Translations under genes and position numbers: made by a program
In this document: positions 15,759 to 36,259 of the stretch, piece after piece
Numbering within the stretch: position 1 is the first letter of the stretch
Layout: each line of letters opens with the position of its first letter
The notes under the pieces: model-generated
What the model was told of the DNA's origin: nothing
Databases searched by the model: none
What the model saw: only the letters and a program-made list of their open reading frames with translations
NCBI RefSeq assembly: GCF_002005105.1
Contig: NZ_MSCV01000029.1
Span: 1-64,000, forward strand
DNA length: 64,000 nucleotides
From: Methylocaldum sp. 14B
GTDB lineage: Bacteria; Pseudomonadota; Gammaproteobacteria; Methylococcales; Methylococcaceae
Direction: 5' to 3'

Positions 15759-16394
15759 ATGAAAATCGGAAATACTGCACGGAATCAGACCGCGCGTCGT
15801 ATCTTGCCCATCGCCTGTGCCTCTGCTCTGGCCGGTCCGGTTTCGCTACCGGCATCAGCCTACGCCGATTTTGTCACGCCGCCATCCGTGCCTGCCGACA
15901 TTCAGGTGCCGGAAGGCAACGAGCCTTTCCTCAAAGCGCACGCCTCCGGCACCCAGAACTACATCTGCCTCCCTTCGGATTCCGGCTTCGCCTGGACTTT
16001 CTTCGGGCCGCAGGCCACCCTGTTCAACCGCTATAACCAGCAGGTCATCACCCACTTCCTCAGCCCCAACCCGTTCGAGAAAGAGACCTCTCGCGTCACT
16101 TGGCAACACTCGCGGGACACGAGCACCGTCTGGGGCCAGGGAATCGCCTCCTCTTCCGACCCTGCCTTCGTCGCGCCCGACGCAATTCCCTGGCTTCTGG
16201 TCCAGGTGGTCGGCGCCCAGGACGGCCCCACCGGAGGCCACGCGCTCACGCCGACAACTTTCATCCAGCGGCTGAACACCGTTGGAGGCGTGGCACCCTC
16301 GACCGGGTGTGCCGAACCGACGGACGTGGGGCAGAAGGCGCTGGTGCCGTACAAGGCGGAGTACTTCTTTTATTCCAAACACACCGCGTACTAA
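15759..16394 (+). CDS. secreted DUF3455 protein
   Basis: The 211-residue product begins with a signal peptide (positive residues, then ILPIACASALAGPVSLPASAYA, cleavage about residue 36). The mature part contains FLKAHASGTQNYIC, SGFAWTFFGPQATLF and ITHFLSPNP, the core of DUF3455, and later WLLVQVVGAQDGPTGG. Four residues around the two Cys (in NYIC and STGC) might form a disulfide. Function of the family is unknown. ATG 15759 follows AGGGGA. It is the first gene facing the large regulator and precedes two gene scars. Confidence 0.85.
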   Translation: MKIGNTARNQTARRILPIACASALAGPVSLPASAYADFVTPPSVPADIQVPEGNEPFLKAHASGTQNYICLPSDSGFAWTFFGPQATLFNRYNQQVITHFLSPNPFEKETSRVTWQHSRDTSTVWGQGIASSSDPAFVAPDAIPWLLVQVVGAQDGPTGGHALTPTTFIQRLNTVGGVAPSTGCAEPTDVGQKALVPYKAEYFFYSKHTAY

Positions 16395-16489
16395 AGCGGC
16401 GATCAAGATCGTTGAACAGTCGTATGCCCGGAGCGTGATGCAGGGGAACGACGGCACGGTCGGCAAAACATCATGGAGTTTGCGTTCAG

Positions 16490-16669
16490 ATGAGCAATAA
16501 ATCAGGTACGTCCAGCCAGATTATCAATCTGCCTCAGGGCGACGGGGCCTTACACGGCATCGGTGAAAAACCCACCCCCGATCTCCATACCGGCAATTTC
16601 ACCGTGCCGATCGCCCTGCCGGCCGGCCACAACGGCAGAATTGTTAATGGCAGAAGGAGTACGCCATGA
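16490..16669 (+). pseudogene. N-terminal remnant of an SpvB/TcaC-type toxin-complex protein
   Basis: A 59-codon open frame reads SSQIINLPQGDGALHGIGEK, then PTPDLHTGNFTVPIALPAGHNG. This is the opening of SpvB/TcaC B-component proteins, whose usual form is LPKGGGAI.GIGEKF...TGTG..PI..PPGR.GF. After HNG the homology ends and the frame runs into RIVNGRRSTP and a TGA at 16667-16669. Intact members exceed 1000 residues, so this is a truncated scar, not a functional toxin subunit. The TGT/GTG dipeptide within the consensus is already shortened (HTGNF). It indicates that a Tc/Rhs-type locus once stood here. Confidence 0.6.
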
Positions 16670-16905
16670 AAGACAGCAATACCGTAATGATCGGAACCAC
16701 ACGCCGAATCCCGTTCTTCGCCGGGGCCGTTGCCTCGGCCGTGCCCGCGAGCATCGGGGTGTCCAGTGCGTTGTCCTCTGATTCAGAGCGCTATCCATGG
16801 GAGAGCCAGAAACGCGACGCAGTTTCAGGGGTGACGTTTTGCCACACTCGCGCCCCCATAGACCAAACACCCAAAGGAGTCTTCCAATGTCTGCTCCCCC
16901 GCTGA
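16666..16905 (+). pseudogene. signal-peptide-like gene start, probably a broken exported-protein gene
   Basis: ATG 16666 follows a strong AGAAGGAG site and overlaps the preceding stop (ATGA). It encodes MKDSNTVMIGTTRRIPFFAG and an Ala-rich hydrophobic run. This resembles in length and layout the start of the nearby DUF3455 protein (MKIGNTARNQTARRILPIA). After about 40 residues the frame loses any exported-protein character and overlaps the ribosome site of the metallopeptidase gene. I read it as the 5' stub of a duplicated or recombined secreted-protein gene. A real 79-residue small protein cannot be excluded. Confidence 0.3.
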
Positions 16906-19370
16906 AGTGGAAGGAAGGCGAAGGTTACGACATCCACCTGCTACGCGGCGGGCCTGCATCGAAGAAGTTGATCGACGCTCTGGACCTGGATGCTAGCCAG
17001 AAGTCTTCAGTCACCTTTATTCCTAACCTGGTGAGCGGTTCGGATCGACACGGCGTAGAGGTGGACGTAAGCGCAGGCATCGTAACCGCACTGGCCCACC
17101 CGGACCCAACCTTTCCCAGAGTCAACAATTTCCTTTTAACAGCCTTGTTCGCTGCTCCCGGTGGCGATAAGGAAGAAGTCGAGATCAGGGTTCACATTCA
17201 CGATTCTGTGGAGGACATCTGGCTGACGCCTTCCACCCTCACGATACATGAAGGTGCCGATGAGTGCCGATTTACGGTGCTAGCTCGCTTCAATGACAAA
17301 AGTGTCGGGGACATTACGGATTGGCCTGAACTCACCTACCGAAGTTTCGACGCGGGAGTCGTGACCGTACTCGCCGGAGGGATCGTGAGGGCGGAAGTGC
17401 CTAGTGGAAGCGCGCCCATCACCGCAAATCTGGCCATTGCCTCCCTGGGCATCAACAAGACGAGCGCGCCGGCGACGGCCCTTGCGAAACCGAGCTGGGC
17501 GGAGGTCGCCAAAGCGGCGAAGGTCGAATTCGTGGCGGGAAAACGCAGACCCGACGAGCGCAACCCTTTCGGCGCCGAGCCGGATAGCATCAAGTCGGTG
17601 GTAGAGAACAGGATAAACGTTCTGTTCGTCGCCGAGGGCTTTCGCCATGATCAGAGATTCGACTTCAGGAACATTGTGAACACGATCGCTCGGGTGTTCC
17701 GAGGCGAGGAGGCGGCATTCGCATCGACCTTCCAACCTTTCAATCTGCTCAAGGATTCCATCAACTACTGGACAGTGTTCGTTCCCTCCGAGCAGGACGG
17801 CGTCAGCCTCCTTGGAAATTACGTTTATGGCGGGGAACATAGATTAACGGGAAGGTTGCTGCCTAGAGCAATTCGCCCTTCCGCCACTGCCATCATGTGG
17901 GATTTCCAGGAGCTCATCCATGAAGTCGGGCTGCCCATCAAAGCGGAAGTTCGCCGCTCACCGCCGGACATGTTAGCCGATTGGCAGAAGCTATACGGAG
18001 ATCACGTTACCGAACTGCGCGTTGCCGAAGTCTCTGGCGAGATTTGGGAGACTCTCGAATCCCTTTCGCCGCTCAACGAACGCGACACGGCTTTCGGCAT
18101 GACCATTGGCGTCCGACCCCACACTACGGGGACGGCAACGGACAACGTTCTTACCGAGTTGAGTACGCGCCGTACGAGCGCGGCCAAGCTTCAAGAGTTC
18201 CTCCGCAATCTAACCATCGGCGGCTACCCTATCGGTGCCAGGTGGCAAAAAGGAGGGGCGGATTCGGGTTTGGTCGGGTTCATTTGCCTGAGCGATAGGG
18301 ACGGGGGAACGCAATCGCCTGACGGTTACTTTACTGCCACTACCGGTCTGTTGTCTTACGTCAATCTGAAAACGCCAGGAAATTCCGGGCTGGACATCGA
18401 GACGTATCCGGTGAGGAACAATCAACGCCATCTCTTGGCATCTATCGTCGCTCACGAACTGGGGCACGCGTTGGGACTGGGAGATGAATATGGCGATGGA
18501 AATGGCTCGCATCTACAGAACGGTGCAGAAGATTACCCATCCCTACCCAATCTGCAAGCAAAGACCGTGGTAGCTCCGCCCCTATCGGGTCCTAGTCCCC
18601 CACCCCTGTCTTTTTACGTCAACAGGATCAAATGGGCCTGGCCCAGGATCACCAAAGCAGGATTGCTCCCGCGGCCACTGGAACCATCTGATCTCACCGA
18701 CAGCGGCATCCGCGTTCCGCTCCTCAAGCACCACGGCAGGCAATTCGCGGTGAACGAGGTCGTGCGGTTCAGGATATGGAAGGACTGGCGCGACCCCTCT
18801 AACGACCAGTTTGCCGGGAGCTTTTTCAGGCTGTCGGCGGTTGAGGATGACGTCGTGACCATTATTCCGGTGACAGTGAGACCAGGAAGCAACGAGGTGA
18901 CGGATGAACCTATGGGCGGATTTGACCGTACTTTGTTTCTCGCCCAGTTCGATTCCAAGGAAGGCCCTTATTCGCTCATCCATCCCCGCAGGGTGAATGG
19001 CAGCGAGATCACTCTAGTAGCCGGTCCCATACTGAGACATATCGATGTGACCGACGGACCGCTGAATGCTCCGAAGGAAAACCCGCATGCAGCCTGTGCG
19101 GCGGCGGGCTATTTAGGTTCTATCGCAACGCCTACCAACCTGCCGGGGCTCTCGAAACGCCCGCGCAATAAGGCCGACATCATCGGCATCTACGAAGGCG
19201 GTTACTACCACGACTGCGGCGTCTTCCGCCCTGCCGGACGCTGCAGAATGAGAAATAGCAACACCATAACGATCCCCTTCTGCCATGTCTGCCGCTACAT
19301 TCTCGTGGAAGCGGTGGATCCGACGAAGCACGGCGATCTGGATAAGCTCTACCCCGAAGTGAGCCTTTGA
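16887..19370 (+). CDS. M64-like zinc metallopeptidase, first gene of a large uncharacterised cluster
   Basis: The 827-residue protein has ATG 16887 after AAAGGAGT; the frame upstream to 16797 is not needed. Residues about 240-310 (INVLFVAEGF, then FQPFNLLKDSINYWTVFVPS) and the zinc site HELGHALGLGDEY (His523, Glu524, His527, with Asp533-Glu534-Tyr535) match the M64 IgA-peptidase family. A Cys-rich C-terminal block YYHDCGVFRPAGRCRM...FCHVC (about 773-805) is also M64-like. The first 210 residues look beta-rich. No signal peptide is visible, unlike typical secreted M64 enzymes. It is followed immediately by the DUF6603-like gene. Confidence 0.8.
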   Translation: MSAPPLKWKEGEGYDIHLLRGGPASKKLIDALDLDASQKSSVTFIPNLVSGSDRHGVEVDVSAGIVTALAHPDPTFPRVNNFLLTALFAAPGGDKEEVEIRVHIHDSVEDIWLTPSTLTIHEGADECRFTVLARFNDKSVGDITDWPELTYRSFDAGVVTVLAGGIVRAEVPSGSAPITANLAIASLGINKTSAPATALAKPSWAEVAKAAKVEFVAGKRRPDERNPFGAEPDSIKSVVENRINVLFVAEGFRHDQRFDFRNIVNTIARVFRGEEAAFASTFQPFNLLKDSINYWTVFVPSEQDGVSLLGNYVYGGEHRLTGRLLPRAIRPSATAIMWDFQELIHEVGLPIKAEVRRSPPDMLADWQKLYGDHVTELRVAEVSGEIWETLESLSPLNERDTAFGMTIGVRPHTTGTATDNVLTELSTRRTSAAKLQEFLRNLTIGGYPIGARWQKGGADSGLVGFICLSDRDGGTQSPDGYFTATTGLLSYVNLKTPGNSGLDIETYPVRNNQRHLLASIVAHELGHALGLGDEYGDGNGSHLQNGAEDYPSLPNLQAKTVVAPPLSGPSPPPLSFYVNRIKWAWPRITKAGLLPRPLEPSDLTDSGIRVPLLKHHGRQFAVNEVVRFRIWKDWRDPSNDQFAGSFFRLSAVEDDVVTIIPVTVRPGSNEVTDEPMGGFDRTLFLAQFDSKEGPYSLIHPRRVNGSEITLVAGPILRHIDVTDGPLNAPKENPHAACAAAGYLGSIATPTNLPGLSKRPRNKADIIGIYEGGYYHDCGVFRPAGRCRMRNSNTITIPFCHVCRYILVEAVDPTKHGDLDKLYPEVSL

Positions 19371-19375
19371 CAGCG

Positions 19376-22300
19376 ATGAACACACAATACGGAACGCTTC
19401 ACACACTCGCAAGGCACCTGGTGTCAGCGCTGGAGCCATTGAAGGAGGCGGTTGCCGACCTGCCGGCATTCCGGACAGTGATCTACCGGCTGGGCTGGGA
19501 CGTCAAATCGCTCCCTCCGGAATACGCTTCTCTCGGGGCGAAGGTGGACTCGGCGATAACGGCATTGAACAACCTGGGCGAGAGCCCGCAGCCGTCGCAA
19601 ATTTTCGCTGTTCTTGGCGAGGTCACGACGCTTTATCAAGCGTTCAAGGGCATCACGAGCGCCCCCGAGGGCGTGGACGCGGCGGCGTTCTCCTCGGAAA
19701 TCGGCCGGCGCCTGTTCGAACTGCTGCTAATGGATTATCTCAGTGAGGCCTTGCCGCTGACGTACTCTGCATTGCTGACGATTGGCATCATCACGGAAGA
19801 AAACGTGGATGAAACGGAAGTCCGGCCCGGCTTCCTGCTGCGCCGCTTCCAGTGGGATGAGATTCCCAAGGTGGTGACCGACCCGGCGTCGATTCCCGCC
19901 CGCGTGTATGGCTGGGGCACCGATGACCTGGACTTTCACCGCCTCACGGGTCATCTGCTGGGTATTTTCCTCGCGCTGGATTTACCGGCTTACATCGGTC
20001 GGGTTGACGAGAAATTGGGAAGCGGTTTTCAGGACCTCCCAGATTATTTCTCACCCTCGATCGAATGGGGTCTGAAGATTCCCGTGCTGCTGGACAATAT
20101 CGGCGGCAAGGAAATCGAGGTCGGGCTCGCGCTGATGGAACTACCCGCACAGAACGGCAAGCCCGCAGGACTCATTCTCCAGCCTTTGGCGTCGCCCCAA
20201 ATCGGGGAAAGCATCGACATTACGGACCACCTACGGCTTGAACTTCGCGCGGGCAGCGACGTTTCCAAAACCTTCGGTGTGCTGCTTAGGCCCGGCGATC
20301 TCTCTGTAAAGTTTCCATTCCAGCAAGGGGCTGTACTCCCTGACAGCGGATTTGGCGCGACTCTGCGCTACGCGCCTGAAAGCCCGGCGCTGTTGCTGGG
20401 AATGCCCGGCAAGAGTCGACTCGAACTCAAGGACCTGGCGACAATCATCAACCTTGACTCCCACGACGGTCGGTTGGAGCTTGGGCTTGAGATCGCTCCG
20501 GGAGACATGAAGTTGATCATTGCTGCGGCCGACTTGGATGGCTTCCTGGGAGAGCTGCTGGGTAACCAGGATATGACCGCGTCGCTGCCGATCATTTTCC
20601 GTTGGTCAAGTGAAACCGGGATCGGGTTCGTCGGCGGCATGGGCTTCCGTGTGAGCCTGCCGGGCAACCTACGTTGGGGGCCGACCAACCTCCAACAGAT
20701 CCAACTCGCGCTGACGTCCATCAACACACCCGGCCAATCGCCCGAGCTGGCACTGGGAGTCGGGACATCGTTGTCCGGCCGTATCGGACCGGTAGCAATG
20801 TCCTTGGACAACGTCGGGCTACGGATGGTCTTTCGCTTTGCCGACGGTAATGCTGGGCCATTCGATCTCGATCTGGGCTTTCAGCCACCGTTAGGCGTGG
20901 GCCTCTCGATCGACGCCCAAGGCGTCCTCACCGGCGGCGGCTTCCTGTTCCACGACCCCGCGCGGCAGCTCTACGCCGGCGCCATGCAGCTCTCGCTGCA
21001 CGATGAAATCACGCTGAACGCCTTCGGGCTCATCGCGACCCGGCTGCCCGACGGCCGCCCCGGCTACTCGATGCTCATCTTCATCACCGCCGACGGCTTC
21101 AAGCCGGTTCCCCTGGGCTTCGGCTTCGTGCTGCAAAGCATCGGCGGCATGGTGGGCATCAACCGCACCTTCGATCACGAGGTGCTCAGGGCCGGGCTGA
21201 AAACCGATATGCTGCGCACGCTGCTGTTCCCGCGCGATCCCGTGGCCAATGCGCCGGCGCTGATCCAGGCCCTGTCGGCCGCGTTCCCGGCCAAACCGGG
21301 CAGTTACCTGCTCGGCCTGATGGCGCGCATCACCTGGTTCACGCCCCCCCTGGTACAGATGGACCTGGCGCTGATCCGGGAGCTCGGCGCGCGCGAGCGG
21401 CTGCTGGTGCTCGGGCGCGCCAGCGCATTGCTGCCGTCGGCCGACAACGACCTGATCCGTCTGAACATGGACGCGCTGGGCGTGCTGGACTTCGACGCCG
21501 GCACGCTGGAAGCCGACGCGGTGCTGGTCGATTCCAGGCTGGTGCACAAGTTCCCGATCACCGGCTCGGCCGCGCTGCGGGCGCGCTGGCCGGCGGGCGG
21601 CGGCGGGCTGGCGGGGTCCCATTTCGTGCTGGCGGTGGGTGGGCTGAATCCCCGGTTTGCCGCGCCGGCCGGCTTCCCGACGCTAGACCGGGTCGCCATC
21701 GCCTTGTCCTCGGGGGAGAATCCCCGGCTGATCTGCGATGCTTATTTCGCGATCACCCCCAATACCGTGCAATTCGGCGCGCGCGCCTCGCTTTATGCCA
21801 AAGGTGCCGGTTTCACCGTCACAGGGGACCTCGGCTTCGACGCCCTGGTGACGATCGTCCCGCCGCACTTCATCGTGGATTTCCATGCCCTGGTGCAGTT
21901 GAAGTACAAGTCGCGCAATCTGTTCAAGGTCGCGCTCGACGGCACCCTGGAAGGCCCGCTGCCGTTGCGGATTGCCGCCAAGGCGAAGTTCAAGATCCTG
22001 TGGTTCAGCTTTACGGTGCGCTTCGCGTTCACCCTCGCCGACGGCTCGGCCTCGCGGTCGATAGCGGCAATATCTCTGGAGACCGAACTGGAGAAGGCGC
22101 TCACCGACCCGGCGAACTGGAGCACGCGGCGGGCACCCGGCGTCGTCCACGGCGTGGCCCTGCGCAGCCTGCCGGCGAATGCGGGCCTGGTGCTCGACCC
22201 CTTGGGCCAACTGGTCGTACAGCAGCAGGTCGTGCCGCTGAACACCCATCGGGACATCGATACCTACGGCGGCGCGCCGATCGCCGGGCGCCGCCGGTTC

Positions 22301-22864
22301 ACGGCCGCCGCCTCGCTGAACGGAAAGGCCGGCACACCGGTGACCGGGGCGTTCGCGCCGGCGCGCTATTTCACGATGAGCGACGACGAGAAGCTGGCCG
22401 CACCTTCGTTCGAGGAGATGGACGCGGGATTCGTGGTAGGCGACACCGATGCGACGTTCGATGAGAACGCCGTCGCGGCATCGGGACTGAATTACGAACC
22501 GATCACCGTGAATCCATCGTCGGCAGCGGAAACCGCCGGCATTGCGGCTTCCTTTGCCGCACTCCCGGCCACGCAGCTCTATACGATGCCGCTGGCCGCA
22601 TTCCAGGCCCAGCGCTCGAGCGGAGCCGCAGCGCGGGCGCCGGTGCGGCATGTCGGCCGCGCGCGGTTCCGCAATACCGCCGTGACGCCCGCGGCCACTC
22701 TCTCCGCTCCCCGCTGGCGGATCATCCGGGCGAGCGACGGCGCGCCGGCGCCCTTGGATCCCGGGGTGAATTCCTGGAGCGACTGCCGCGCCGCGCTCGC
22801 CGACCTGAACCGCGGCGGCGTCCGCTGGCTGATGGTCCCCGCCCACGAACTCGAAGCCTTGTAA
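19376..22864 (+). CDS. giant DUF6603-like protein of unknown function
   Basis: From ATG 19376 the product has 1162 residues; a TTG at 19367 overlapping the previous stop is an alternative. The first 250 residues are helical. The rest is a long beta-rich region with GGGFLFHDPARQLYAGAMQL (about 519), PVPLGFGFVLQSIGGMVGIN, LFPRDPVANAPALIQALSAAFP and NTVQFGARASLYAKGAGF. These blocks recall the DUF6603 domain of large uncharacterised bacterial proteins. The C-terminal 200 residues are Ala/Pro-rich and less ordered. No signal peptide or membrane helix. Base composition rises sharply inside the gene near 20.9 kb. Confidence 0.75.
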   Translation: MNTQYGTLHTLARHLVSALEPLKEAVADLPAFRTVIYRLGWDVKSLPPEYASLGAKVDSAITALNNLGESPQPSQIFAVLGEVTTLYQAFKGITSAPEGVDAAAFSSEIGRRLFELLLMDYLSEALPLTYSALLTIGIITEENVDETEVRPGFLLRRFQWDEIPKVVTDPASIPARVYGWGTDDLDFHRLTGHLLGIFLALDLPAYIGRVDEKLGSGFQDLPDYFSPSIEWGLKIPVLLDNIGGKEIEVGLALMELPAQNGKPAGLILQPLASPQIGESIDITDHLRLELRAGSDVSKTFGVLLRPGDLSVKFPFQQGAVLPDSGFGATLRYAPESPALLLGMPGKSRLELKDLATIINLDSHDGRLELGLEIAPGDMKLIIAAADLDGFLGELLGNQDMTASLPIIFRWSSETGIGFVGGMGFRVSLPGNLRWGPTNLQQIQLALTSINTPGQSPELALGVGTSLSGRIGPVAMSLDNVGLRMVFRFADGNAGPFDLDLGFQPPLGVGLSIDAQGVLTGGGFLFHDPARQLYAGAMQLSLHDEITLNAFGLIATRLPDGRPGYSMLIFITADGFKPVPLGFGFVLQSIGGMVGINRTFDHEVLRAGLKTDMLRTLLFPRDPVANAPALIQALSAAFPAKPGSYLLGLMARITWFTPPLVQMDLALIRELGARERLLVLGRASALLPSADNDLIRLNMDALGVLDFDAGTLEADAVLVDSRLVHKFPITGSAALRARWPAGGGGLAGSHFVLAVGGLNPRFAAPAGFPTLDRVAIALSSGENPRLICDAYFAITPNTVQFGARASLYAKGAGFTVTGDLGFDALVTIVPPHFIVDFHALVQLKYKSRNLFKVALDGTLEGPLPLRIAAKAKFKILWFSFTVRFAFTLADGSASRSIAAISLETELEKALTDPANWSTRRAPGVVHGVALRSLPANAGLVLDPLGQLVVQQQVVPLNTHRDIDTYGGAPIAGRRRFTAAASLNGKAGTPVTGAFAPARYFTMSDDEKLAAPSFEEMDAGFVVGDTDATFDENAVAASGLNYEPITVNPSSAAETAGIAASFAALPATQLYTMPLAAFQAQRSSGAAARAPVRHVGRARFRNTAVTPAATLSAPRWRIIRASDGAPAPLDPGVNSWSDCRAALADLNRGGVRWLMVPAHELEAL

Positions 22865-22879
22865 AGGAGCCAAGTCACC

Positions 22880-25630
22880 GTGTCCAACGCAAACCTGTAT
22901 TTCCTGCCCTGGGTGCGGCAGGGCGCCGCCTCCGCCATCGACGCCGAACAGAAAACCGGGATCGCCAGTGTCAATGTGATGCTCACGCTGGATGCCAAGA
23001 CGGTTCCGGTTTCGGTAAAGTTGCGCGGCCCGGCGGACGTGATCGGGATCGACGCCAACCAGGTCGTTCGCACCGACCCCCGGCCGGGTTCGAACGACTT
23101 CGAGCCGAACTGCTTTCCGTCGATCGAGTTCGACCGCCCGGACTTTCCATGGCTGTTCACGCCGGCAAAAGCCCTCGCCGACAACCGGCTGCGGCCATGG
23201 CTGTGCCTCGTGGTGGTACGGAAACAAGCCGGCGTGAGTTTGAACAGTGCGGCCGACGCGCCGCTGCCCGTTTTGACGATCGCCGCACCGGCGCGGCCAT
23301 GGGTCGAACTCCCGGACCTGAACGAATCCTGGGCCTGGGCGCATGCCCAGGTGGCCGCGGACGACGGCAGCAAAGATGCCATTCGGGGGGCCTTGCAAGG
23401 TTCGCCGGAGCTGTCGCTTTCGAGGCTGCTGTGTCCGCGCATCCTGGCGCCCGACAACGACTACATCGCCTGCGTGGTTCCCGCTTTCGAACTGGGCCGG
23501 AAAGCCGGGCTAGGCATACCCATCGAGAAAACGGAATACGAGACGCCGGCGCCGGCCTGGTCGATACCGCCCGAACCGCCGACCGAGTACGGACCGACCC
23601 GGCTGCCCGTTTATTACCATTGGGAATTCCGTTCGGGCCAGCCGGGCGATTTCGAGTCGATCGCCAGGAATCTGAAGGCCGATGTGCCGGACGGTCTCGG
23701 CAAGCGCAGGATCGACATCAGCCAGCCCTTTCCCGAGTCGGGCGCGACGGAGGTGGAACTCGAAGGCGCGCTGCTGCCGATCTCGCCGCCCGGCGGCTCG
23801 CCGGCCCCGGCCCCCGTTCCGCAGCCGTTCAGGGACAATCTCGCCAAGACCGTCAACGGCAGCATCACCGGACCGGACTCCGACCCCGTGCTCGCCCCCC
23901 CCATCTACGGCCGCTGGTACACCAAGGACGCAACGGTCGATCCAGCGGGCGCAACCTGGCTCGATCAGCTCAATGTCGATCCGCGCTGGCGTATCGCCGC
24001 CGCCTTCGGAACCCGCGTCGTTCAGGAGCACCAGGAAGCGCTGATGGCCTCGGCGTGGGAACAGGCCGCCGAATCGGCGGTCGCCAACCAGCGTTTGCGC
24101 CAGATCCAGCTGAGCCTCGCCGTGGGCGAGAGCCTGCACGCTCGCCATCTCTCCAAGTTCACCGAGGAAAGAATGCTGCGCATCACGGCGCCCGCCTTCG
24201 CCCGCTTGCGAGTCTCCCGGCAACAGGATGTTTCGGGGCTGGCCGCAAGCGCGGCCGCGACGGCGGAACCGTCGCTGCTAGCCGAACAGGCCCGTTCCGC
24301 ATTGCCGGTAGCGGCAAACCGCCCGGCGATGCGCCGCATCGGACGCCAGCGCGGCCCGCTGACCCGCCGCGTCGCTGCCCAGAATTACCAGCGCAACGCC
24401 AAAGACACCTGGGTGGCCCGCCTCAACAATATGCCGGGGGACACCCCTCCGATCCAGCCGCCGCAGCCGCCGCAGCAGGACTTTTGCCCGATACCGGGGA
24501 GCCTGCCGGTCGAGTATCTCGGGCTCGAGGGGGCCCAACCCCAGAAGAACGGATCGTACTTCGGCGCATTCTTCGTCTCGCCCGAAAACACCCCCGTGCT
24601 GTCGCCGGGCACGCCGCTGCTGAAGCAGGACCGGACCGAGGTTCCCGGCTTTTTCCGCAAGGCGGCGCAGGAACATCTGAATCGCTTCCCCGCCCCACGC
24701 ACCGCCTCTGCCGAACTACGGCTCCCGATGCAGGCCATCACTATCCCGGTGCTCGCACAGACCATCCCGCGGGAAACGCTGCCGGCCCTGGTCAAGGCGA
24801 TCATGTCGACCGGAGACAACGTGCTCGCGCCGGCGGAGACCGACGGGGTGGATACAGTCATGATGGCGCCGCACTTCCCGCAGCCCATGTACGAAACGCT
24901 GCGCGACCTGTCGCAGGAACTGCTGCTGCCGGGAATCGACAAGGTCAGGCCGGAGACGGTTGTCGGCCTGGAGACGAATCGGCGGTTCATCGAGGCCTAC
25001 CTGGTCGGGCTCAATCATGAAATGGCCCGCGAGCTGCTGTGGCGGGGTTACCCGACCGATCAGCGCGGCACCTATTTCGACCGGTTCTGGAGCATCGGGC
25101 ACCCGGATATCACCGCCCTGCACACCTGGAGCGTCATCGATTCGGCGACCGGGAAAATGAGGCCGCTGGGCGATCTCGCCTTCGGCGCGCCTCCGGACGC
25201 CAATCCGTTCGTCATGCTGCTGCGCAGCAGCCTGCTGCAGCGCTATCCCAACGCGTCGGTCTTCATGGTTCGCTCGATGCATCCGGGGTCGCCCCCCGAC
25301 CCCCTGGCGTTCCAGCCCGACCCGGCGGCGCCCGAGCTGCTGCCCATCTTCAGCGGCTTCATGCAGCCGGATGTGTTCATTTTAGGTTTTGATGTCTCTC
25401 CGGACGAGGCCGGCGGCGATCCAGGCTACTACGTAGTCATTCAGGAGCATCCCACCGAACCGCGCTTCGGCATCGATGCGGATCGAACGCGAGACAGCAG
25501 CCATCTCAGCCTCGGCGATCTCGGCCTCGATGCCGCTCCGCCCGCGCACGCCGCGCAAACCGCCGCCGCCACGCGCCGGCTTCCGGTACGCATCGCCATT
25601 CACGCCAAACGGCTCATCATGCCGGCCTGA
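22880..25630 (+). CDS. 916-residue uncharacterised protein of the large-protein cluster
   Basis: GTG 22880 follows AAAGGAG 15 bases after the previous stop. The N-terminus NLYFLPWVRQGAASAI and the C-terminal part with YPNASVFMVRSMHP, GFMQPDVFILGFDVSPDEAGG and VIQEHPTEPRFGID (about 830-866) are the most pattern-like segments. I recall similar sentences in uncharacterised proteins from other phyla but no named function. A Pro-rich linker (PPIQPPQPPQQ, about 520) splits the protein into two halves. No signal peptide, membrane helix or enzyme motif was recognised. Confidence 0.8.
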   Translation: MSNANLYFLPWVRQGAASAIDAEQKTGIASVNVMLTLDAKTVPVSVKLRGPADVIGIDANQVVRTDPRPGSNDFEPNCFPSIEFDRPDFPWLFTPAKALADNRLRPWLCLVVVRKQAGVSLNSAADAPLPVLTIAAPARPWVELPDLNESWAWAHAQVAADDGSKDAIRGALQGSPELSLSRLLCPRILAPDNDYIACVVPAFELGRKAGLGIPIEKTEYETPAPAWSIPPEPPTEYGPTRLPVYYHWEFRSGQPGDFESIARNLKADVPDGLGKRRIDISQPFPESGATEVELEGALLPISPPGGSPAPAPVPQPFRDNLAKTVNGSITGPDSDPVLAPPIYGRWYTKDATVDPAGATWLDQLNVDPRWRIAAAFGTRVVQEHQEALMASAWEQAAESAVANQRLRQIQLSLAVGESLHARHLSKFTEERMLRITAPAFARLRVSRQQDVSGLAASAAATAEPSLLAEQARSALPVAANRPAMRRIGRQRGPLTRRVAAQNYQRNAKDTWVARLNNMPGDTPPIQPPQPPQQDFCPIPGSLPVEYLGLEGAQPQKNGSYFGAFFVSPENTPVLSPGTPLLKQDRTEVPGFFRKAAQEHLNRFPAPRTASAELRLPMQAITIPVLAQTIPRETLPALVKAIMSTGDNVLAPAETDGVDTVMMAPHFPQPMYETLRDLSQELLLPGIDKVRPETVVGLETNRRFIEAYLVGLNHEMARELLWRGYPTDQRGTYFDRFWSIGHPDITALHTWSVIDSATGKMRPLGDLAFGAPPDANPFVMLLRSSLLQRYPNASVFMVRSMHPGSPPDPLAFQPDPAAPELLPIFSGFMQPDVFILGFDVSPDEAGGDPGYYVVIQEHPTEPRFGIDADRTRDSSHLSLGDLGLDAAPPAHAAQTAAATRRLPVRIAIHAKRLIMPA

Positions 25631-25647
25631 CCCACGGACTCACACCG

Positions 25648-28600
25648 ATGAATAAACCGCTATTCGATACCAGTTTCGCGCTTCCCTCGGTAAACCCCGA
25701 GATTACGCCCCAAAGGCTCTGTCCCGGCAATGTTCCCCTGGTGCTGCTGCCGGTGCGACTGGAGACGCGTTTCTTCGAACTGCCCGACGGCTCAGCCACA
25801 CTGCGGGTGCGCGTCTATCCCGACAAGATTCATATCGACACCCACCAGCCAGACCTCACGGAGGAAGAACAGGCCTTGGGAATGCAGTATTGGCAGCAGG
25901 ATTGGGCGGCGGGAGACGAAACCGCCCGCGCCGACGCCTGGCATACCCTGGCCAGCCGCGTCGATGCGGAGCGCGCCGCGTGGATAGCCCGGGTACTGCA
26001 GCCCACCAACCTCGCCCAGCGCCCCAAGGAGCCGCCGGTATTCCCGCCCCTGCCCCCGGTACGGGGCGAGCATGCGCCGGTGGCCCGGCTGCTGCCGGAC
26101 CGCTGGACCGCCGTACTGCACTCGGGAGGAACGGTCGCGTTGACGGCCACCGGAAACGACATTCAGCGAGAGCTCGCGGTCGGCCTTAACCCGAATGTGT
26201 CCGACGATAAAACCGACATGTCGGCCGGTGCCGGCGACACGCTCGCCCTGGATGAGGACATGATGTGGCTGGTGGACTTCGACAAGGCCCAGTCGGCCGG
26301 AATGGCGCTCACCATGACCGTGCCGGCGGCCGTTCTGGAAACCGGCATCGACGGTCTCATGGTATTCGGCGTCGCCGACTCGCCGGACACAGCCGATACG
26401 GCCAACCGGCTGGCCGATCTTCTCGATGCGCACCATTACACCGACGGGCTCGAGTTCCTGCGCTTCGGAACCCCCACGAACAACACCGACGATAGGCGCG
26501 CCGGCTACAGCACGGATGATCCCGGCCACCGCCGAAGCTTCGCCAACGAGGTCGTCGCGAATCCCGAAAACACGCCGAACGCGCGGCTCGTCGGGACGGT
26601 GCTCGGGCTGCCGCCGGAACGGATCGCAACCACCCTGGGACGCGTGGGCCAGGCCGGCCAGGACCACGAACGCGACCTGCGCAGCATGAATGCCGCGCTA
26701 TGGCAGGTCGGCTGGGGCTATTTCCTCAGCAACATGATGGGCGCGGAAACCGGCCTCACGGCCGAAGCGCTCGATTGGGCGCGCAACCACTTCCTGAACT
26801 ACGTGCGCAGCGGCGGTCCCTTCCCGTCCCTGCGCTGCGGAACCCAGCCCTATGGCATCCTGCCGGTGACGTCGCTGGACTTATGGACGCCGGAGGCGGG
26901 CGAAGCTTCCGCCGCCCGGGAATCCCGGCTCAAAGAGCTGCTGCTCGCCATGCGCAACGAAGTATGGCGCCCCGTCGTGCACCTGGTCGCACGCATCGGA
27001 CTCCGGCAGGAAACGCCCGGGAAGGCCGATCCTGACAGCGACCTCGCCGACGTCATGCGAACCGATGGCGTTTCGCACGGACATCTCACCCGCAGAGTGC
27101 TCGGCCGGCATTATCTCGAGCACCTGTACGCGCTGGCCGGGCGGGACTTCAGCCCGCTCGCGGTAGCGCAAGGCGAGATTTCGGCCAAGCTGATCGATCG
27201 CTTGAAGCTGACGGTGCAGAAGCTTCCCCGCCTCGCGCGCTGTTTCCTGGACACGGCACCCGTGCCGGTGACCGCTCCCCTGGTGCACGCGGGAGAAATT
27301 TCGCCGTGGCAGCGCCTGGAGTCCAATTACATCAGCGCGCTGCTCGAAACCACGAGCATCGAGGCATTGATCACGCTCGATCCGCCGCCGAGTCCGAGTC
27401 TTTTGTATGCGCTGCTGCGTCACGCACTGCTCCGCGAAATCGCGGAAGCCGCCGCGCGCATGGCGGCAACCGTGCCGGACAAACAATACGCGACGCTCGA
27501 CCTGCTGCGCGATTCCGAACTGGTCGATCTGGTCGACGGGTCCATCATCGGCTACACGGTGCAGAAGCCGGCGGACACGCTGCACTGGAAGCGCCAGCTC
27601 GAAATCCATGGCGTTCCGGGCCTTCCCGCCGACCAGACGATCGGCCGGTATCTCGAAGACTGGCTGCAGGCGCGCGCCGGCGGCAACCATCCGGCCGTCG
27701 CGGCGCTCGGCGAATTCCGCGCCGGCCTGGCCCATCTGCAGATGCTGGACACCGAGTCGCTACACTATCTGATGCAGTCCACGCTCGATCTCTCCTCGCA
27801 TCGGCTCGACGCCTGGATCACCTCGTTCGCCACCAAGCGCCTGAAAGCGATGACCCCCGGCGGATCGCCGGGTGTTTACGTGGGCGCCTACGGCTGGGTG
27901 GAAAATCTCCGGCCGGCGCATCGGGCGGAGCCGATTCCCGCCGAGCTGTTGCCGCCGGGGGAGCAGGCACCGGAGGAGCAGGCGCCGCTGTATCCGCTGG
28001 CCAATGACAGCGGCTTCATTCATGCCCCCTCGCTAACCCACGCGTCCGCGGCGGCCTTGCTGCGCAATGCGCATCTCGGCCCCGACGGAGTCCCGCAGCC
28101 GGATGGATCGTTTGCCATCGATCTGTCGTCGCGGCGGGTGCGCGATGCCTCGCGGCTGCTCGAAGGCGTGCGCCAGGGACAGCCGCTGGGCGCGCTCCTG
28201 GGCTATCGGCTCGAACGCCGCCTGCATGAAGCCGGGCTCGATCATTTCATCGCGCCGCTGCGAAAAATCTCACCGTTGGCAGTCCGCAAGCGGGAAACCG
28301 ACGCCTGGCCGAACGAGATCTTCAAAGCCAACGCGGCCAACAACGTGGTGGACGGACTAGAGCTGTTCCGAGCATGGAAGGCATACCGGAATAGCATCGC
28401 CTTTGAGATCAGGAACGTGGGGAGCGACGACGAAAGGTTCCGGGTCGAACGTGAGATCGAAGCGCTCGGCGATGCGATCGACGGTCTTGGCGATGCACTC
28501 GTCGCCGAGGCGGCGTACCAGATCGCTCGCGGCAACACCCCGCGCCTGGCCAGCACGCTGTCGGCCATCGCCCTGGGGGATGCGCCGGTACCGGAACTGG

Positions 28601-30156
28601 AAGTGGCCCGCATCCCTCGCACCGGCACCTCGCTGACCCATCGCGTGCTGGTGCTGTTCAGCGGCGTGTCGAATGCCGGCGGCGGCTGGACCAACTCGAC
28701 CACACGCACTGTCAACGAGCGCTGGCTCAATGCCTGGATCAGGCTGTTGCTGGGCGATGCGCGCAAGGTGCGGTGCACCGTCGAGCGGCTCGACGACACC
28801 ACCGGCGCGGTGACGGAAACCGCCGTTTTCCCGTTGAGCGATGTGCCGATGTCTACCCTAGACTTCGTGTACAGCGTACAGCCCGGGGGCCAGTCGGCCA
28901 CGGCCGACGCGTCGCCCTGCCTCGCCGAGCAGCGCGTGCTTTATCATGCAAGACGCCTGGCGAACGGCTTCGGCAACGACGCCGGGGTGCGGCTGCAGCA
29001 CGAGCGGCCGGCCGATCTCGCCGCCGGAGAGACGACGCTGTTCGACGTGCTGGAGCAGGCACGCGCCATTCGGCGCTTGCTCCAGGGCGCACGCGGACTG
29101 CGTCCCGAGGACCTGAGCCCGCCCGACCGCCCGCATCAGTCCACGCTCGATCTGGCGGACCTGGAAGCACGTGTCGTGCGATACGAGAACGGCCTGAATG
29201 CCGCCCACAAGACGCTCGCAAGCCTGGTGTCCAAGGGCGCGGAGACCCTCGCCGAGGATTTCCGGACGGCGATACTGAACCTCGGCCATTTCAGCGTCGA
29301 GCCGGCCGTCCCCGGCGTCGCGGTCGGCGACACGCCCGAGATTCGCAGCGCCTTGGCCCGGCAGGCGGCCGCGATGCTGAAGGTCAGCGGACCGCGCTTG
29401 GAACAGGGCGCCGCGCTTCGAACCCGGGTTGCAGCAACCGACCCCCGCGCGCGCTGCGACCAACTGCTCGAACGCGGACGCGCCGTCTATGGCGCCGAGT
29501 TCGTGTCGCTCCCAAGCTTTACCTGCGACGCTGCCGGCGCCGCCGAACTCAATGCCGCACTCGCGGCCGGCACCCGGCAACAAGGCGGCGATCCGCTCGC
29601 CGTCCACGGCTGGTTCATGCGCGCCTCGCGGGTGCGCGACGCCCTGGCGCCTCTCGGCCTGTGCCTGCAGACGGCGGAAGTCTTCGCGACCGGCGCCCGC
29701 CTGGACCTTAATGTCGCGCAATTGCCTTTCAACGCGGAAGAGCGCTGGGTAGGCCTGCCGGGGGCCGGGAAAGAACTGCCTCCGAGCAAGCTGTCGCTGG
29801 TGGTGCAACCCATGACGGCAATCGATGCCGCCCTGCCCTTGTCCGGCCTGTTCATCGACGAATGGGTGGAGGTGGTGCCGAACAAGGAGGAAACGACCGC
29901 CCTCACCTTTCAGTTCGATCCGCCCAATGCCTTCCCGCCGCAGAACGTGCTGATCGCCGTGCCCCCGGTTCCGGGCCAGGACTGGACCACCGAAACCTTG
30001 CGCTGCGTGCTCGCCGAGACGCTCGATCTGGCCAAGCTGCGCGCCGTCGACACGCGCCTGCTCGGCGCGGCCGCGCAGTATCTGCCGGGCATCTACGTGC
30101 CCTTCAATGTCGCGGACGACGCGGTCTCGACCGACTTCGCGCCGCTCACGGCCTAA
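25648..30156 (+). CDS. 1502-residue uncharacterised protein of the large-protein cluster
   Basis: The largest protein of the window starts 17 bases after its neighbour, without a strong ribosome site, so translation is probably coupled. Residues 30-42 read PLVLLPVRLETRF and about 395-405 read CGTQPYGILPV; these two segments look like family signatures. The middle is Ala/Leu/Arg-rich and mostly helical, with several repeats of an HALLREIAEAAARM-like amphipathic style. The last 100 residues (LFIDEWVEVVPN, FQFDPPNAFPPQNVLIAVPPVPG) are beta-like. No catalytic motif, signal peptide or membrane helix seen. Function unknown. Confidence 0.8.
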   Translation: MNKPLFDTSFALPSVNPEITPQRLCPGNVPLVLLPVRLETRFFELPDGSATLRVRVYPDKIHIDTHQPDLTEEEQALGMQYWQQDWAAGDETARADAWHTLASRVDAERAAWIARVLQPTNLAQRPKEPPVFPPLPPVRGEHAPVARLLPDRWTAVLHSGGTVALTATGNDIQRELAVGLNPNVSDDKTDMSAGAGDTLALDEDMMWLVDFDKAQSAGMALTMTVPAAVLETGIDGLMVFGVADSPDTADTANRLADLLDAHHYTDGLEFLRFGTPTNNTDDRRAGYSTDDPGHRRSFANEVVANPENTPNARLVGTVLGLPPERIATTLGRVGQAGQDHERDLRSMNAALWQVGWGYFLSNMMGAETGLTAEALDWARNHFLNYVRSGGPFPSLRCGTQPYGILPVTSLDLWTPEAGEASAARESRLKELLLAMRNEVWRPVVHLVARIGLRQETPGKADPDSDLADVMRTDGVSHGHLTRRVLGRHYLEHLYALAGRDFSPLAVAQGEISAKLIDRLKLTVQKLPRLARCFLDTAPVPVTAPLVHAGEISPWQRLESNYISALLETTSIEALITLDPPPSPSLLYALLRHALLREIAEAAARMAATVPDKQYATLDLLRDSELVDLVDGSIIGYTVQKPADTLHWKRQLEIHGVPGLPADQTIGRYLEDWLQARAGGNHPAVAALGEFRAGLAHLQMLDTESLHYLMQSTLDLSSHRLDAWITSFATKRLKAMTPGGSPGVYVGAYGWVENLRPAHRAEPIPAELLPPGEQAPEEQAPLYPLANDSGFIHAPSLTHASAAALLRNAHLGPDGVPQPDGSFAIDLSSRRVRDASRLLEGVRQGQPLGALLGYRLERRLHEAGLDHFIAPLRKISPLAVRKRETDAWPNEIFKANAANNVVDGLELFRAWKAYRNSIAFEIRNVGSDDERFRVEREIEALGDAIDGLGDALVAEAAYQIARGNTPRLASTLSAIALGDAPVPELEVARIPRTGTSLTHRVLVLFSGVSNAGGGWTNSTTRTVNERWLNAWIRLLLGDARKVRCTVERLDDTTGAVTETAVFPLSDVPMSTLDFVYSVQPGGQSATADASPCLAEQRVLYHARRLANGFGNDAGVRLQHERPADLAAGETTLFDVLEQARAIRRLLQGARGLRPEDLSPPDRPHQSTLDLADLEARVVRYENGLNAAHKTLASLVSKGAETLAEDFRTAILNLGHFSVEPAVPGVAVGDTPEIRSALARQAAAMLKVSGPRLEQGAALRTRVAATDPRARCDQLLERGRAVYGAEFVSLPSFTCDAAGAAELNAALAAGTRQQGGDPLAVHGWFMRASRVRDALAPLGLCLQTAEVFATGARLDLNVAQLPFNAEERWVGLPGAGKELPPSKLSLVVQPMTAIDAALPLSGLFIDEWVEVVPNKEETTALTFQFDPPNAFPPQNVLIAVPPVPGQDWTTETLRCVLAETLDLAKLRAVDTRLLGAAAQYLPGIYVPFNVADDAVSTDFAPLTA

Positions 30157-30199
30157 TTCAACCGCCGCCACCAACGAAATAGATAGAGGAAACGACGTA

Positions 30200-32680
30200 A
30201 TGGCAGGACTTTTCGTTTTCGTAGCCAGCCCGGCCCAGTACAGCATGGTCGGACGGAGCATACAGTTGTCCGGTTCGGTTGGAGGCGCCGGTAGCGGTTC
30301 CGTCTCCTGGGTTAGTATCCAGCTCGGCGCCGGGGGACCTACAGTGAAGCCCAACGGTCGCGAGAATTGGAGTTGGCAGGGACTGATCCCAAACAACATC
30401 CGCCCGGGCCAGGCGTTTCAGATCATCGTCACTGCCAGCGGAGTGATACAGACCAAGGGTTGGCCGGAACCGGAATACGAGACGGTCGACGGACAAGCCG
30501 TCCTCAACGTCGTGCTCGAAAACGTGGTGCCGGAACTGACGGTCGATTCGTTCCAGTCGCCCGTCGTGGTGACGCAGTTCCCCTATGTTTTCCAGCTCGA
30601 AGGATCCGCATCGGAGGCTAAACCCGAGATCTACGGCGTCCCCCAAGTCCAGTATCGGATCGGAAACGGTGCGTTCGTGGCCGCGAGTCCCGTCGTTGGC
30701 AACGCGGCTCGCTGGACTGCGGCGGTTTCCGTGGCGACCAAAGGGGACAGTGTCATCACCGTGCGGGCGTCCGACAATTTCGGGTCGGTCACGACCGTCC
30801 AGAAAACCTTGACGGTGCTCGAGTATCCGATGCCGACCGAAGTCGATCCGAACGTAAAAACAACGCTGGCCGGCGTGCCGACGACGTCCTCGATTACCAG
30901 CTGGACGCGGCTCGAACCGCAGTGTTCCAACGCGGACATCGGTTCCAGTTCCAACGCCCGCCTGTTCGATCCGCTATGGCTCATGACGCGGCAATGGCAG
31001 ATCGGCGAATTCCAGGGCGAGGATACCGGCTCGCCGGTGCAGGCGCGGGTGCGGGCAACGGGCGCACTGCTCACGCGGTGCTATTTCGGGGAGTTGCCCG
31101 AGAATAACAAGGCGCCTCCGTACGACCCGACGCTCGAACCGCTCGAGGCCGTGGTGGAACGCCGGCGCATGCGTCCCGCCGGCGCCGACGATTCCCGCAT
31201 GCTCACGCTGGCTGTGGAAGCCGGGCTCCACTTCCTGCGCATGCTGGAACGCAACGCGACGGCGAAGAAATATCGCCCGGCATTCCTCGCCCACTATGTA
31301 CTGCAACCGTCCCTCACGCTGCCGGCCGACGACGCCGGCCGGCGCTTCGTCCAGACCATGGTCGGTCGAGCGCCCGACGCGCGCCGGCTCGCGTCCGCGT
31401 TCCGCCAGCCGGACTCGTCCCAGATCGTTTTCGATGCGGCGCTTAACATCGCGGCAGCCGACCGTGCCCCGGTGCAGCAGGTCGCATCGGCTTGGCTGGC
31501 CTGGTACGACGGGCTTTTCACCGAGCCTGGGGCACCGTCCCAGGACGCCTGGATGCCGTCGCGCCTCGAGTATGCCGTGTCGGTCGCCACCCGTTTGTCC
31601 GCCGATCCGCAGGACGCGCTGACCTTCTCCGCCAGCGAATTCGATGGCGGCCGACTCGACTGGAGCAGCTTCGACATCAATAAAACAGCCGGTGTCGACA
31701 CCACCGGCGACGTGTATCCGATCGCGCTCACGGAAACCACGATGCCCGCGCCGGTGAGCTTTCACGGCGCGCCCGCTCCGCGTTTCTGGGAACTGGAGGA
31801 CGCGAAAATCGCCTACGGTCTGGTGTCGGCCGGACCGGCGGATGTGGCGCAAATGCTCATGATCGAGTATGCCAGCACCTACGGCAATGACTGGTTTGTC
31901 GTGCCGCTGAACTTGCCGGTGGGCAGCGTCACCCGCATCGACTCGCTGGTGGTGACCGACACCTTCGGCGTCCGCAGCCTGCTGCGTCCCATCGGAGATC
32001 CGGAACTGCCGCAGCCCTTCTTTTCCCTGTGGCAGAATTCGACCCTGCGCCGTGCGGGCAAAAGCCTCGGGGAAGAGTTACCGACCGGCGAGCGGATCGG
32101 CGCTCCCGTCCCCAATCTGTTCTTTCTTCCACCCACGCTTGGCCGGACCATCGACGGCGCACCCCTGGAAGACGTGCTGTTCATGCGCGACGAAATGGCC
32201 AACATGGGGTGGGGCATCGAGCGTAGCATCGAAAGCGCCATCGAAACGCCGCTCAAGCTGGCAAGCGATCCGGCGCAGGCCAACAGCGCTCCGCCCCCCT
32301 CCACCGCACTGCCGCGCTATCGGCTGTCGACGACCGTGCCGGACAACTGGATACCGCTGCTGCCCGTGCAACCGAATAACACCGACAACGCGGTTTCGCA
32401 GCTCCGGCCCGGGGCCGTACTTCAGCCGAATTCCACGGCAAAACCACAGTTCGCCCGTAGCGAGGTGCTCAAGGCGTTGAGCACGCAATGGCTCTACGAC
32501 GAGGAGGTCCCCCGTGAAGGCGTGCATATTACGCGTCGGCGCCATATGACGCGTTGGATCGATGGGTCGACCTGGGTATGGACCGCGTTCCGCAGCGAAG
32601 TCGGCACCGGGGAAGGATCGGCCGGTCTGCGCTTCGACCAGATCGAGGATGGCGGTCGGTCGGAGCAGGGATTCGATTGA
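30200..32680 (+). CDS. 826-residue uncharacterised protein with N-terminal Ig-like domains
   Basis: ATG 30200 follows AGAGGA; the open frame back to 30107 overlaps the previous gene and is not used. Residues 1-215 read as two Ig-like beta-sandwich domains, the second with VQYRIGNGAFVAAS and VITVRASDNFGSVTTVQKTL. The rest has RLFDPLWLMTRQWQIGEF then QGEDTGSPVQARV (about 253-285), a segment I associate with uncharacterised bacterial proteins. No signal peptide. It is the last gene of the cluster; an IS5-family remnant starts within about 25 bases of its stop, so further genes may have been lost. Confidence 0.8.
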   Translation: MAGLFVFVASPAQYSMVGRSIQLSGSVGGAGSGSVSWVSIQLGAGGPTVKPNGRENWSWQGLIPNNIRPGQAFQIIVTASGVIQTKGWPEPEYETVDGQAVLNVVLENVVPELTVDSFQSPVVVTQFPYVFQLEGSASEAKPEIYGVPQVQYRIGNGAFVAASPVVGNAARWTAAVSVATKGDSVITVRASDNFGSVTTVQKTLTVLEYPMPTEVDPNVKTTLAGVPTTSSITSWTRLEPQCSNADIGSSSNARLFDPLWLMTRQWQIGEFQGEDTGSPVQARVRATGALLTRCYFGELPENNKAPPYDPTLEPLEAVVERRRMRPAGADDSRMLTLAVEAGLHFLRMLERNATAKKYRPAFLAHYVLQPSLTLPADDAGRRFVQTMVGRAPDARRLASAFRQPDSSQIVFDAALNIAAADRAPVQQVASAWLAWYDGLFTEPGAPSQDAWMPSRLEYAVSVATRLSADPQDALTFSASEFDGGRLDWSSFDINKTAGVDTTGDVYPIALTETTMPAPVSFHGAPAPRFWELEDAKIAYGLVSAGPADVAQMLMIEYASTYGNDWFVVPLNLPVGSVTRIDSLVVTDTFGVRSLLRPIGDPELPQPFFSLWQNSTLRRAGKSLGEELPTGERIGAPVPNLFFLPPTLGRTIDGAPLEDVLFMRDEMANMGWGIERSIESAIETPLKLASDPAQANSAPPPSTALPRYRLSTTVPDNWIPLLPVQPNNTDNAVSQLRPGAVLQPNSTAKPQFARSEVLKALSTQWLYDEEVPREGVHITRRRHMTRWIDGSTWVWTAFRSEVGTGEGSAGLRFDQIEDGGRSEQGFD

Positions 32681-32684
32681 CGGT

Positions 32685-33380
32685 TCACGCTTTATTAGAG
32701 CGTGTTATGCACTTTGCAGGAGTAGCGAGGCCTTGACGAGCATGAGGACGGCGAACACCACGAAGTGCAGGCCCGCCAAGGTTTCGGCTAACCGCTCGTA
32801 ATCGCGAGCCAAACGCCGAAAACGGGCGATCCAACCGAAACTCCGCTCCACCACCCAGCGCCGGGGCAACAGCACAAAGCCTCTTTTGACCTCAGGCAGC
32901 TTGACCACTTCCAGCCGAATGCCGTGCTGGCGGGCGACCTCGGCTGCCTCGTCACCGGCGTCGCCCTGGTCGACAAACGCCACTTCCACACCTTGTCCCG
33001 TGACTTGTTGAACAGAGCGCGCCAGTTCCGCCACCTGCGCCCGTTCCGGCTCATTGGCCGGAGTCACCAGGAGCGCCAACAGATGGCCCAAGGTATCGAC
33101 GGCCATGTGGACCTTGCTGCCCTTCTTGCGTTTATAGTCATCGTAACCGGCACGCGACCCACTCTCACAATTGGGTCGCAGCGTTCGCCCATCCAAAATC
33201 GCGGCTTTCGGCTGCGATTTTCGCCCCTGCGCCAGACGCAAAATTTCGAGGCGATCGTGCACGATCGCCTCGAAGCAGCCCGCCGCGAGCCAACGCTGGG
33301 TCTGTTGATAAACGGCTTCCCACGGCGGCAGGTCATGCGGCAACATCCGCGAAGGCGCGCCGGCCCGCTTGGCCGGGACA
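32685..33380 (-). mobile_element. 5'-truncated IS5-family insertion sequence
   Basis: The element comprises the 3' two thirds of an IS5-family transposase gene and about 20 bases beyond its stop. Sequence resembling a full element begins near 33375 at a RAGAPxRMLPHDLPPW block; upstream of that the sequence reads into a terminator hairpin and lacks the usual N-terminal 70-90 codons. Terminal repeats and target duplication could not be established because the 5' end is missing. Boundaries are approximate. Confidence 0.7.
32705..33378 (-). pseudogene. IS5-family transposase, N-terminally truncated
   Basis: The readable frame encodes MLPHDLPPWEAVYQQTQRW, the DDE catalytic segments ILDGRTLRP, VDTLGHLLALLVTPANE and VEVAFVDQGDAGDEA, and the C-terminal LPRRWVVERSFGW and RLARDYERL. 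Related transposases start about 80 residues earlier. In the second Asp region the usual GYTG is GDAG. An open frame of 245 codons to 33442 exists, but its first 30 codons are foreign sequence. Activity is unlikely. Confidence 0.8.
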
Positions 33381-33401
33381 TGGAATGCGTTCGGAGAGTT
33401 G

Positions 33402-33427
33402 AAAAAATAGAGCCTCCCGGCGGGAGG
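33402..33427 (-). terminator. rho-independent terminator for the glycerol-3-phosphate dehydrogenase gene
   Basis: Read on the minus strand, CCTCCC pairs with GGGAGG around GCC and is followed by CTCTATTTTTT. It lies about 140 bases beyond the glpD-like stop, directly before the truncated insertion sequence. Confidence 0.75.
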
Positions 33428-36200: not shown

Positions 36201-36259
36201 TTGCTGGAAATCCGGTCTTGACCGGCGTATCGCATCGAGCGGCGTGCCTGAACTTCGCT

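Follow-up and report, generated by a model that had tools for sequence, protein, structure and literature searches.

Five large open reading frames follow one another on the same strand of the 64,000-nucleotide stretch of DNA analysed here (the window), with gaps of 5, 15, 17 and 43 nt between them. Sizes and spacing, read from the ORF coordinates, agree with the original prediction, which had proposed one system of five genes, a protease among them. The features are:

16887-19370, + strand: gene 1, slot 1, M64-like zinc metallopeptidase, 827 aa (Pfam M64, 3.6e-15; zinc motif)
19376-22864, + strand: gene 2 (P2), DUF6603 protein, 1162 aa (Pfam)
19376-20839, + strand: enzyme-specific front of the DUF6603 protein, residues about 1-488, limit approximate (co-variation, swap boundary of relatives, model)
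20840-22864, + strand: constant back of the DUF6603 protein (Pfam DUF6603 at residues 432-1004, model)
22880-25630, + strand: gene 3, core protein 3 (P3), 916 aa, no family or fold match
25648-30156, + strand: gene 4, core protein 4 (P4), 1502 aa, no family match
30200-32680, + strand: gene 5, core protein 5 (P5), 826 aa, conserved from about residue 230

Alternative upstream starts giving longer ORFs are present at 16797 (ATG), 19367 (TTG) and 30107 (ATG). G+C content is 58-59% at positions 16001-20000, which hold gene 1 and the beginning of gene 2, and 64-68% at 20001-32000; a low-G+C front and a higher-G+C remainder would be in keeping with a mosaic.

Gene 1 contains the zinc site HELGHALGLGDEY and scores 56.3 bits against Peptidase_M64 (PF09471), above the curated Pfam threshold of 26, and the HExxH...DEY pattern is kept in 11/11 aligned sequences, the window's among them. 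Its zinc motif region also has a sub-cut-off resemblance to M7 and M10 peptidases in Pfam, and as a single chain compared with the PDB it gave weak matches to the M64-like structures 4df9 (4.8e-5) and 3p1v (1.5e-4). Gene 2 matches DUF6603 (PF20248), a family without an assigned function, at 411 bits against a cut-off of 27 (E 8.6e-123), covering positions 3-501 of the 502 in the profile. The metallopeptidase site, the M64 likeness and the DUF6603 resemblance that had been read from the letters alone are therefore all upheld, and so is the statement that genes 3-5 lack an assignable function: P3, P4 and P5 have no above-cut-off family in Pfam, NCBIfam, PHROGs or PADLOC. Pairwise profile comparison gave no sign of a common origin among P3, P4 and P5.

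Do these genes belong together? Gene 3 sequences of six loci were aligned, and with this alignment as the query a scan of 84,980 species genomes returned 215 pattern-matching stretches, 170 of them encoding a relative. The best 80 of these 170 gene 3 relatives (L020-L099), five further stretches and the window gave a set of 86 loci, whose 895 ORFs were clustered. The order of genes 2, 3, 4 and 5 is complete in 53/86 loci and partial in 33/86, and another order is found in none. P3 relatives are present in 81 of the 86 loci, P4/P5 in 78 and DUF6603 in 74, some genes being hidden in these counts by contig ends and long antisense ORFs. Taking the longest ORFs, neighbours lie at most 60 nt apart in 56/72 cases for P2-P3, 47/72 for P3-P4 and 59/62 for P4-P5, some loci carrying an additional gene between P3 and P4. 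A protein of 269-345 aa occupies this position in 16 loci, mostly Nitrospira-type (e.g. L045, L046 and L054), and the single one read looks coiled-coil; in L025 (4656-11159) a single ORF of 2168 aa is a P4-P5 fusion. Twenty-three genomes chosen among the loci contain 28 P3 and 28 P5 genes (split matches joined) and 34 DUF6603 pieces. Each P3 there lies no more than about 3 kb from a DUF6603 match, in rows read by eye, and the few DUF6603 pieces without a P3 are a fragment in G381 and a contig-edge case in G359.

According to database records, which for some phyla are metagenome bins only, the 80 loci come from Pseudomonadota, Acidobacteriota, Nitrospirota, Actinomycetota, Bacteroidota, Bacillota, Myxococcota, Chloroflexota, Aminicenantes and Goldiibacteriota, and the archaeal members are Halobacteria (Halosimplex, Natrinema and Natrarchaeobius). 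The bins labelled Lysobacter (L064) and Gemmatimonadetes (L067) may be misbinned, since both fall among Nitrospira on the P3 tree, but there is also a match on a Gemmatirosa plasmid. The conserved order in many phyla and two domains of life, with the linkage of genes 2, 3 and 5, argues that genes 2-5 are one system. Conserved co-occurrence, proposed earlier as a check, was thus found for these four genes, and the idea that unrelated housekeeping genes lie together here by chance is refuted by the fixed order across phyla and deserves virtually no weight.

Occurrence of the block is patchy. Plasmid relatives were found in 13/72,556 records, close genomes carry the block in 4/61 cases with the window's own genome included, and within the window's phylum it is present in 1/299 sampled genomes, namely its own. 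In that genome genes 2-5 occur a second time (G000:C14, about 31365-45206; L011, L012); in this copy DUF6603 is broken into two ORFs and no enzyme precedes on that strand. A search of a viral contig collection returned no P3 or P4 relative; an unverified, unannotated faecal scaffold filed as phage (MT835531.1, L103) contains a P3 relative.

The position ahead of DUF6603, slot 1, is where the loci differ. It is occupied by M64 peptidases, PhoD-like phosphatases, subtilases, phospholipase D (PLD), trypsin-like proteins, Het-C, beta-lactamase-like proteins and others. Above the Pfam cut-off are PhoD-like phosphatase in L081, L021 and L100, subtilase in L078, PLD in L054, L036, L086 and G017 (as L014), Het-C in L031, beta-lactamase2 in L056, DUF2515 in L027 and M64 in the window; M64 in L044 (23.9 bits) and the trypsin-like protein in L041 are below it, and the representatives L032, L055, L074, L095, L097 and others are without a Pfam match. 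The remaining loci were typed by BLAST cluster or motif, so many labels are not Pfam-based. With 74 rows in the P3 tree, 52 of them labelled, at least 16 changes of slot-1 type are required; a stricter 65-row tree, made by removing nine mostly long-branched rows, has 47 labelled rows of eight types and requires at least 15, both counts excluding L074, L095 and G027, whose type is unclear, and all unlabelled rows. The P3 of the window clusters, with 100/100 support, with those of L020 (slot 1 PhoD) and L086 (slot 1 PLD). The protease is accordingly not the fixed member that had been assumed but one of several interchangeable slot-1 enzymes, and the proposal of a single system stands for genes 2-5 only.

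The slot-1 stop and the DUF6603 start (longest ORF) overlap by 4 nt in 18/84 rows, which represent six enzyme types. Seven Nitrospira-type loci (L046, L060, L062, L069, L071, L078 and L096) have the arrangement DUF6603-enzyme-DUF6603 before one P3-P5 set, with the truncated end of a further enzyme before the first DUF6603. No recognised enzyme precedes DUF6603 in L030, L088, L090 and G000:C14, and the DUF6603 proteins of two plasmids, which are short (767 and 782 aa), likewise have no recognised enzyme in front. At least two tandem M64-like genes lie ahead of one DUF6603 in L037, L039 and L040 (Spirosoma, Larkinella).

What accompanies the enzyme when it changes? For 52 labelled loci (23 PhoD, 10 M64, 6 S8, 3 trypsin-like, 3 c11, 3 PLD, 2 DUF2515, 1 beta-lactamase2 and 1 Het-C) we compared the DUF6603 proteins, all 1000 aa or longer, split at window residue 335 into front and back, with the bit score divided by the smaller self score as the similarity measure for all 1326 pairs. 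Not one of the 1003 pairs with different enzymes has a front similarity above 0.15, and 25 of the same 1003 have a back similarity of 0.6-0.8. Among the 323 same-enzyme pairs, the share with a front above 0.15 rises from 0/78 in the most distant bin to 16/16 in the nearest. The nearest neighbour has the same enzyme type in 40/42 loci when judged by the front and in 28/42 when judged by the back. The two misses by front are L041 and L086; the differing front of L086 may go with a different protein subfamily, as its PLD did not join the remaining PLDs in their BLAST cluster. Along the protein, for 190 same-type and 877 different-type pairs with a back identity of 0.35-0.85, the identity of same-type pairs exceeds that of different-type pairs by 0.05-0.10 up to residue 497, by 0-0.03 at 498-797 and by 0.01-0.06 beyond. 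The subtilase and trypsin-like slot-1 proteins of L060, L078, L032, L063 and L041 carry at their ends a common domain of about 100-140 aa; that this domain dictates a similar DUF6603 front is not clearly supported, as DUF2515-M64 pairs score equally high.

Individual pairs of loci display the exchange directly. The window and L020 are 52%, 58% and 57% identical in P3, P4 and P5, with no meaningful match in slot 1 and no match between their DUF6603 fronts; the fronts of the distant M64 loci L046 and L039 share 35-40% identity with that of the window. L066 (M64) and L060 (S8) are 94% identical in P3 and 89% in the DUF6603 back, with 24% in the front (E 3e-14) and no match between the slot-1 enzymes. 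In two close pairs the DNA identity steps up within the DUF6603 gene, from about 37% to about 85%. For L066 against L060/L062 the step, here to 86-93%, is at L066:8177, near codon 488; for L099 (PhoD) against L054 (PLD) it is at 8160, near codon 515. The close agreement of these two boundaries speaks for a domain limit. In L060 the first DUF6603 gene stands after a PLD-type protein and resembles the DUF6603 gene of L066 (84%) only beyond the L066 boundary. The still detectable distant relationship between the L066 and L060 fronts suggests that the fronts may descend from one ancestor by divergence.

Very probably, then, to judge from these comparisons, the DUF6603 protein and P3-P5 constitute one gene block whose front gene is one of several unrelated enzymes, and the enzyme is exchanged together with the first 490 or so residues of DUF6603 while the rest stays. 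The joint exchange could merely reflect neighbouring DNA moving together. We found no description of the DUF6603 front/back split with its P3-P5 partners, and no publication on the gene cluster, in the open-access library searched.

DUF6603 also exists outside the block. It was found in 8 other genomes of the 299, in open frames of 1565-3518 aa; these 8 genomes, apparently from the same draw of 299, have no P3, and the five that were read have no P3, P4 or P5 within 19 kb of DUF6603. Giant ORFs of about 1500-3400 aa with DUF6603 and without P3-P5 are found in L109-L113, and L109 has a lactamase-B-like ORF (21.6 bits, cut-off 22.7) directly before DUF6603 and an M64 ORF nearby. These other giant ORFs and the enzyme-like neighbours in L109 raise the prospect that the block may be just one form of a broader family of enzyme partners, DUF6603.

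How might such a block function? Our favoured reading, to which we give a probability of about 50%, is that it is a modular enzyme carrier, perhaps delivering outside the cell. The enzyme and its matching DUF6603 front would be an exchangeable cassette, and the constant back and P3-P5 would be the chassis. The front would act as a cargo-specific adaptor for the enzyme of its own locus, which the constant, beta-rich back would dock to a large P3-P4-P5 complex; we regard this division of labour, binding by the front and docking by the back, as likely. The tandem cassettes ahead of a single P3-P5 set in the seven Nitrospira-type loci fit the carrier reading. Once loaded, the complex would leave by a non-Sec/Tat route or by lysis and hand its enzyme over at a target, either a cell or a surface, and to such action outside the producer we assign slightly less than even odds.

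The AlphaFold2 model of P2 (38 sequences; pLDDT 77.8, pTM 0.51) begins with helices (residues 7-219), continues in long antiparallel strands as far as about residue 890 and ends in a mixed tail. Foldseek returned 8 matches at E ≤0.001, all beta meanders of low TM-score. Outer-membrane barrels, LptD, ushers and apolipoprotein B appear among the hits, but by query length the TM is ≤0.16 in the 50 matches listed, and P2 is therefore given no fold. An outer-membrane barrel is disfavoured, given the lack of signal peptides and the presence of the block in Gram-positives and archaea. A lipid-handling complex, in which the DUF6603 sheet would form a belt or barrel that binds lipid, with enzymes acting on lipids or membranes, could draw on the weak likeness to LptD, ushers and apolipoprotein B and on the PLD in certain slots, but those TM values point to local beta-meander likeness only and lipid enzymes are a minority among the labelled slot-1 types, which makes this reading quite improbable. 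P3 was modelled from 42 sequences with helices and strands (pLDDT 81.5, pTM 0.71), and the model has no Foldseek match at E ≤0.001. The P4 single chain has no match among PDB sequences, and profiles against the PDB were unconvincing: the best values were 0.14 for P5 and 0.58 for P4, with none for P3, and the best for P2, 0.016, was a designed helical protein aligned over the helical front.

Where would the proteins act? The five cluster proteins of the window have neither signal peptide nor membrane helix by crude hydrophobicity tests, as the original prediction had held. Across the loci, the crude signal test was positive for 0/78 P2, 0/79 P3, 0/75 P4, 0/63 P5 and 1/55 slot-1 proteins; in the controls, 5/6 proteins expected to be exported or membrane-bound were positive, one being missed, and 0/4 expected to be cytosolic. 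Some relatives do have hydrophobic stretches, in 6/79 P3, 12/77 P2 and 1/138 P4/P5 rows. LTD, FG-GAP and PKD domains are typical of outside proteins, and 23 chosen long core proteins contain insertions of LTD (3), FG-GAP_3 (3) and PKD (1); haloarchaeal members are annotated with a BGTF surface domain and a lamin tail. These insertions and annotations, and the preponderance of hydrolases among recognised slot-1 proteins, would also suit a surface or secreted display of enzymes for nutrient use, cellulosome-like and not a weapon. We regard such a display as unlikely: the crude test detects no signal peptide, and the proteins scanned gave no dockerin or cohesin match.

Upstream of the window cluster lies a large regulatory protein that combines Trans_reg_C and AAA_16 domains (12210-15236, - strand), a BTAD/NB-ARC regulator adjoins the cluster of L044, and in L076 a TIR protein lies 253 nt ahead of DUF6603. 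Together with the missing signal peptides (crude test), the patchy presence and the plasmid copies, these neighbours would agree with an intracellular conflict or immune complex in which P2-P5 sense an invader and free the enzyme (protease, phospholipase or phosphatase) in the cell. P2-P5 of the window, however, contain no NTPase or sensor domain in Pfam, none of the five window proteins matches a PADLOC defence profile, and some members have the extracellular-type insertions, all of which leaves an immune complex with a low probability.

The carrier reading has parallels in known systems. In T6SS effector-adaptor pairs (DUF4123, DUF1795) each effector reaches a common machine through its cognate adaptor, and the logic of the proposed DUF6603 front would be alike, although no T6SS part was matched in P2-P5 by Pfam; eight annotated plasmid regions with incomplete gene tables name no T6SS, tube, sheath, baseplate or ATPase gene. 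Polymorphic toxins such as Rhs and CDI have a constant part and a recombining catalytic module. The block likewise places a recombining catalytic module next to a constant part, but its swapped unit is a separate upstream gene and half of the next gene. eCIS and Tc toxins consist of large proteins without signal peptides and possibly carry enzymes, as the block may do; unlike eCIS, T6SS and Tc, P2-P5 have no tube, sheath, baseplate, ATPase or Tc families in Pfam, NCBIfam or PHROGs. Gene 1 shares its domain and zinc motif with Peptidase M64, and peptidase activity is predicted for it, but it has no visible signal peptide, is tied to DUF6603 and is one of several slot enzymes. A bolder reading, which we consider less likely than not, is a new delivery particle of bacteria and haloarchaea, unrelated to contractile, Tc or secretion parts, by which adaptor-loaded hydrolases would be carried to other cells.

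Four giant protein families without an assigned function, from two domains of life, would in this way be brought into one system with a testable prediction, namely which DUF6603 half binds which enzyme, and the DUF6603 exchange boundary supplies natural domain limits. If the system delivers or displays enzymes, it would be a modular carrier made of parts for which no relatives were found here.

A toxin-complex scar near the cluster, claimed earlier in favour of a toxin or delivery function, was not found among the window ORFs compared with Pfam: no toxin-complex family is matched by the 25 further ORFs, larger than small fragments, or by the 30 that include the cluster. Directly after the cluster is an IS5-family transposase (32705-33442, - strand), whose model is matched from position 43 onward. 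An RHS repeat protein lies near the cluster on the other strand of a Streptomyces plasmid (L102, NZ_CP109035.1, 2292-5609), and on a Nocardia plasmid (L107, NZ_CP109567.1, 25812-29522) an S8 peptidase comes after P5.
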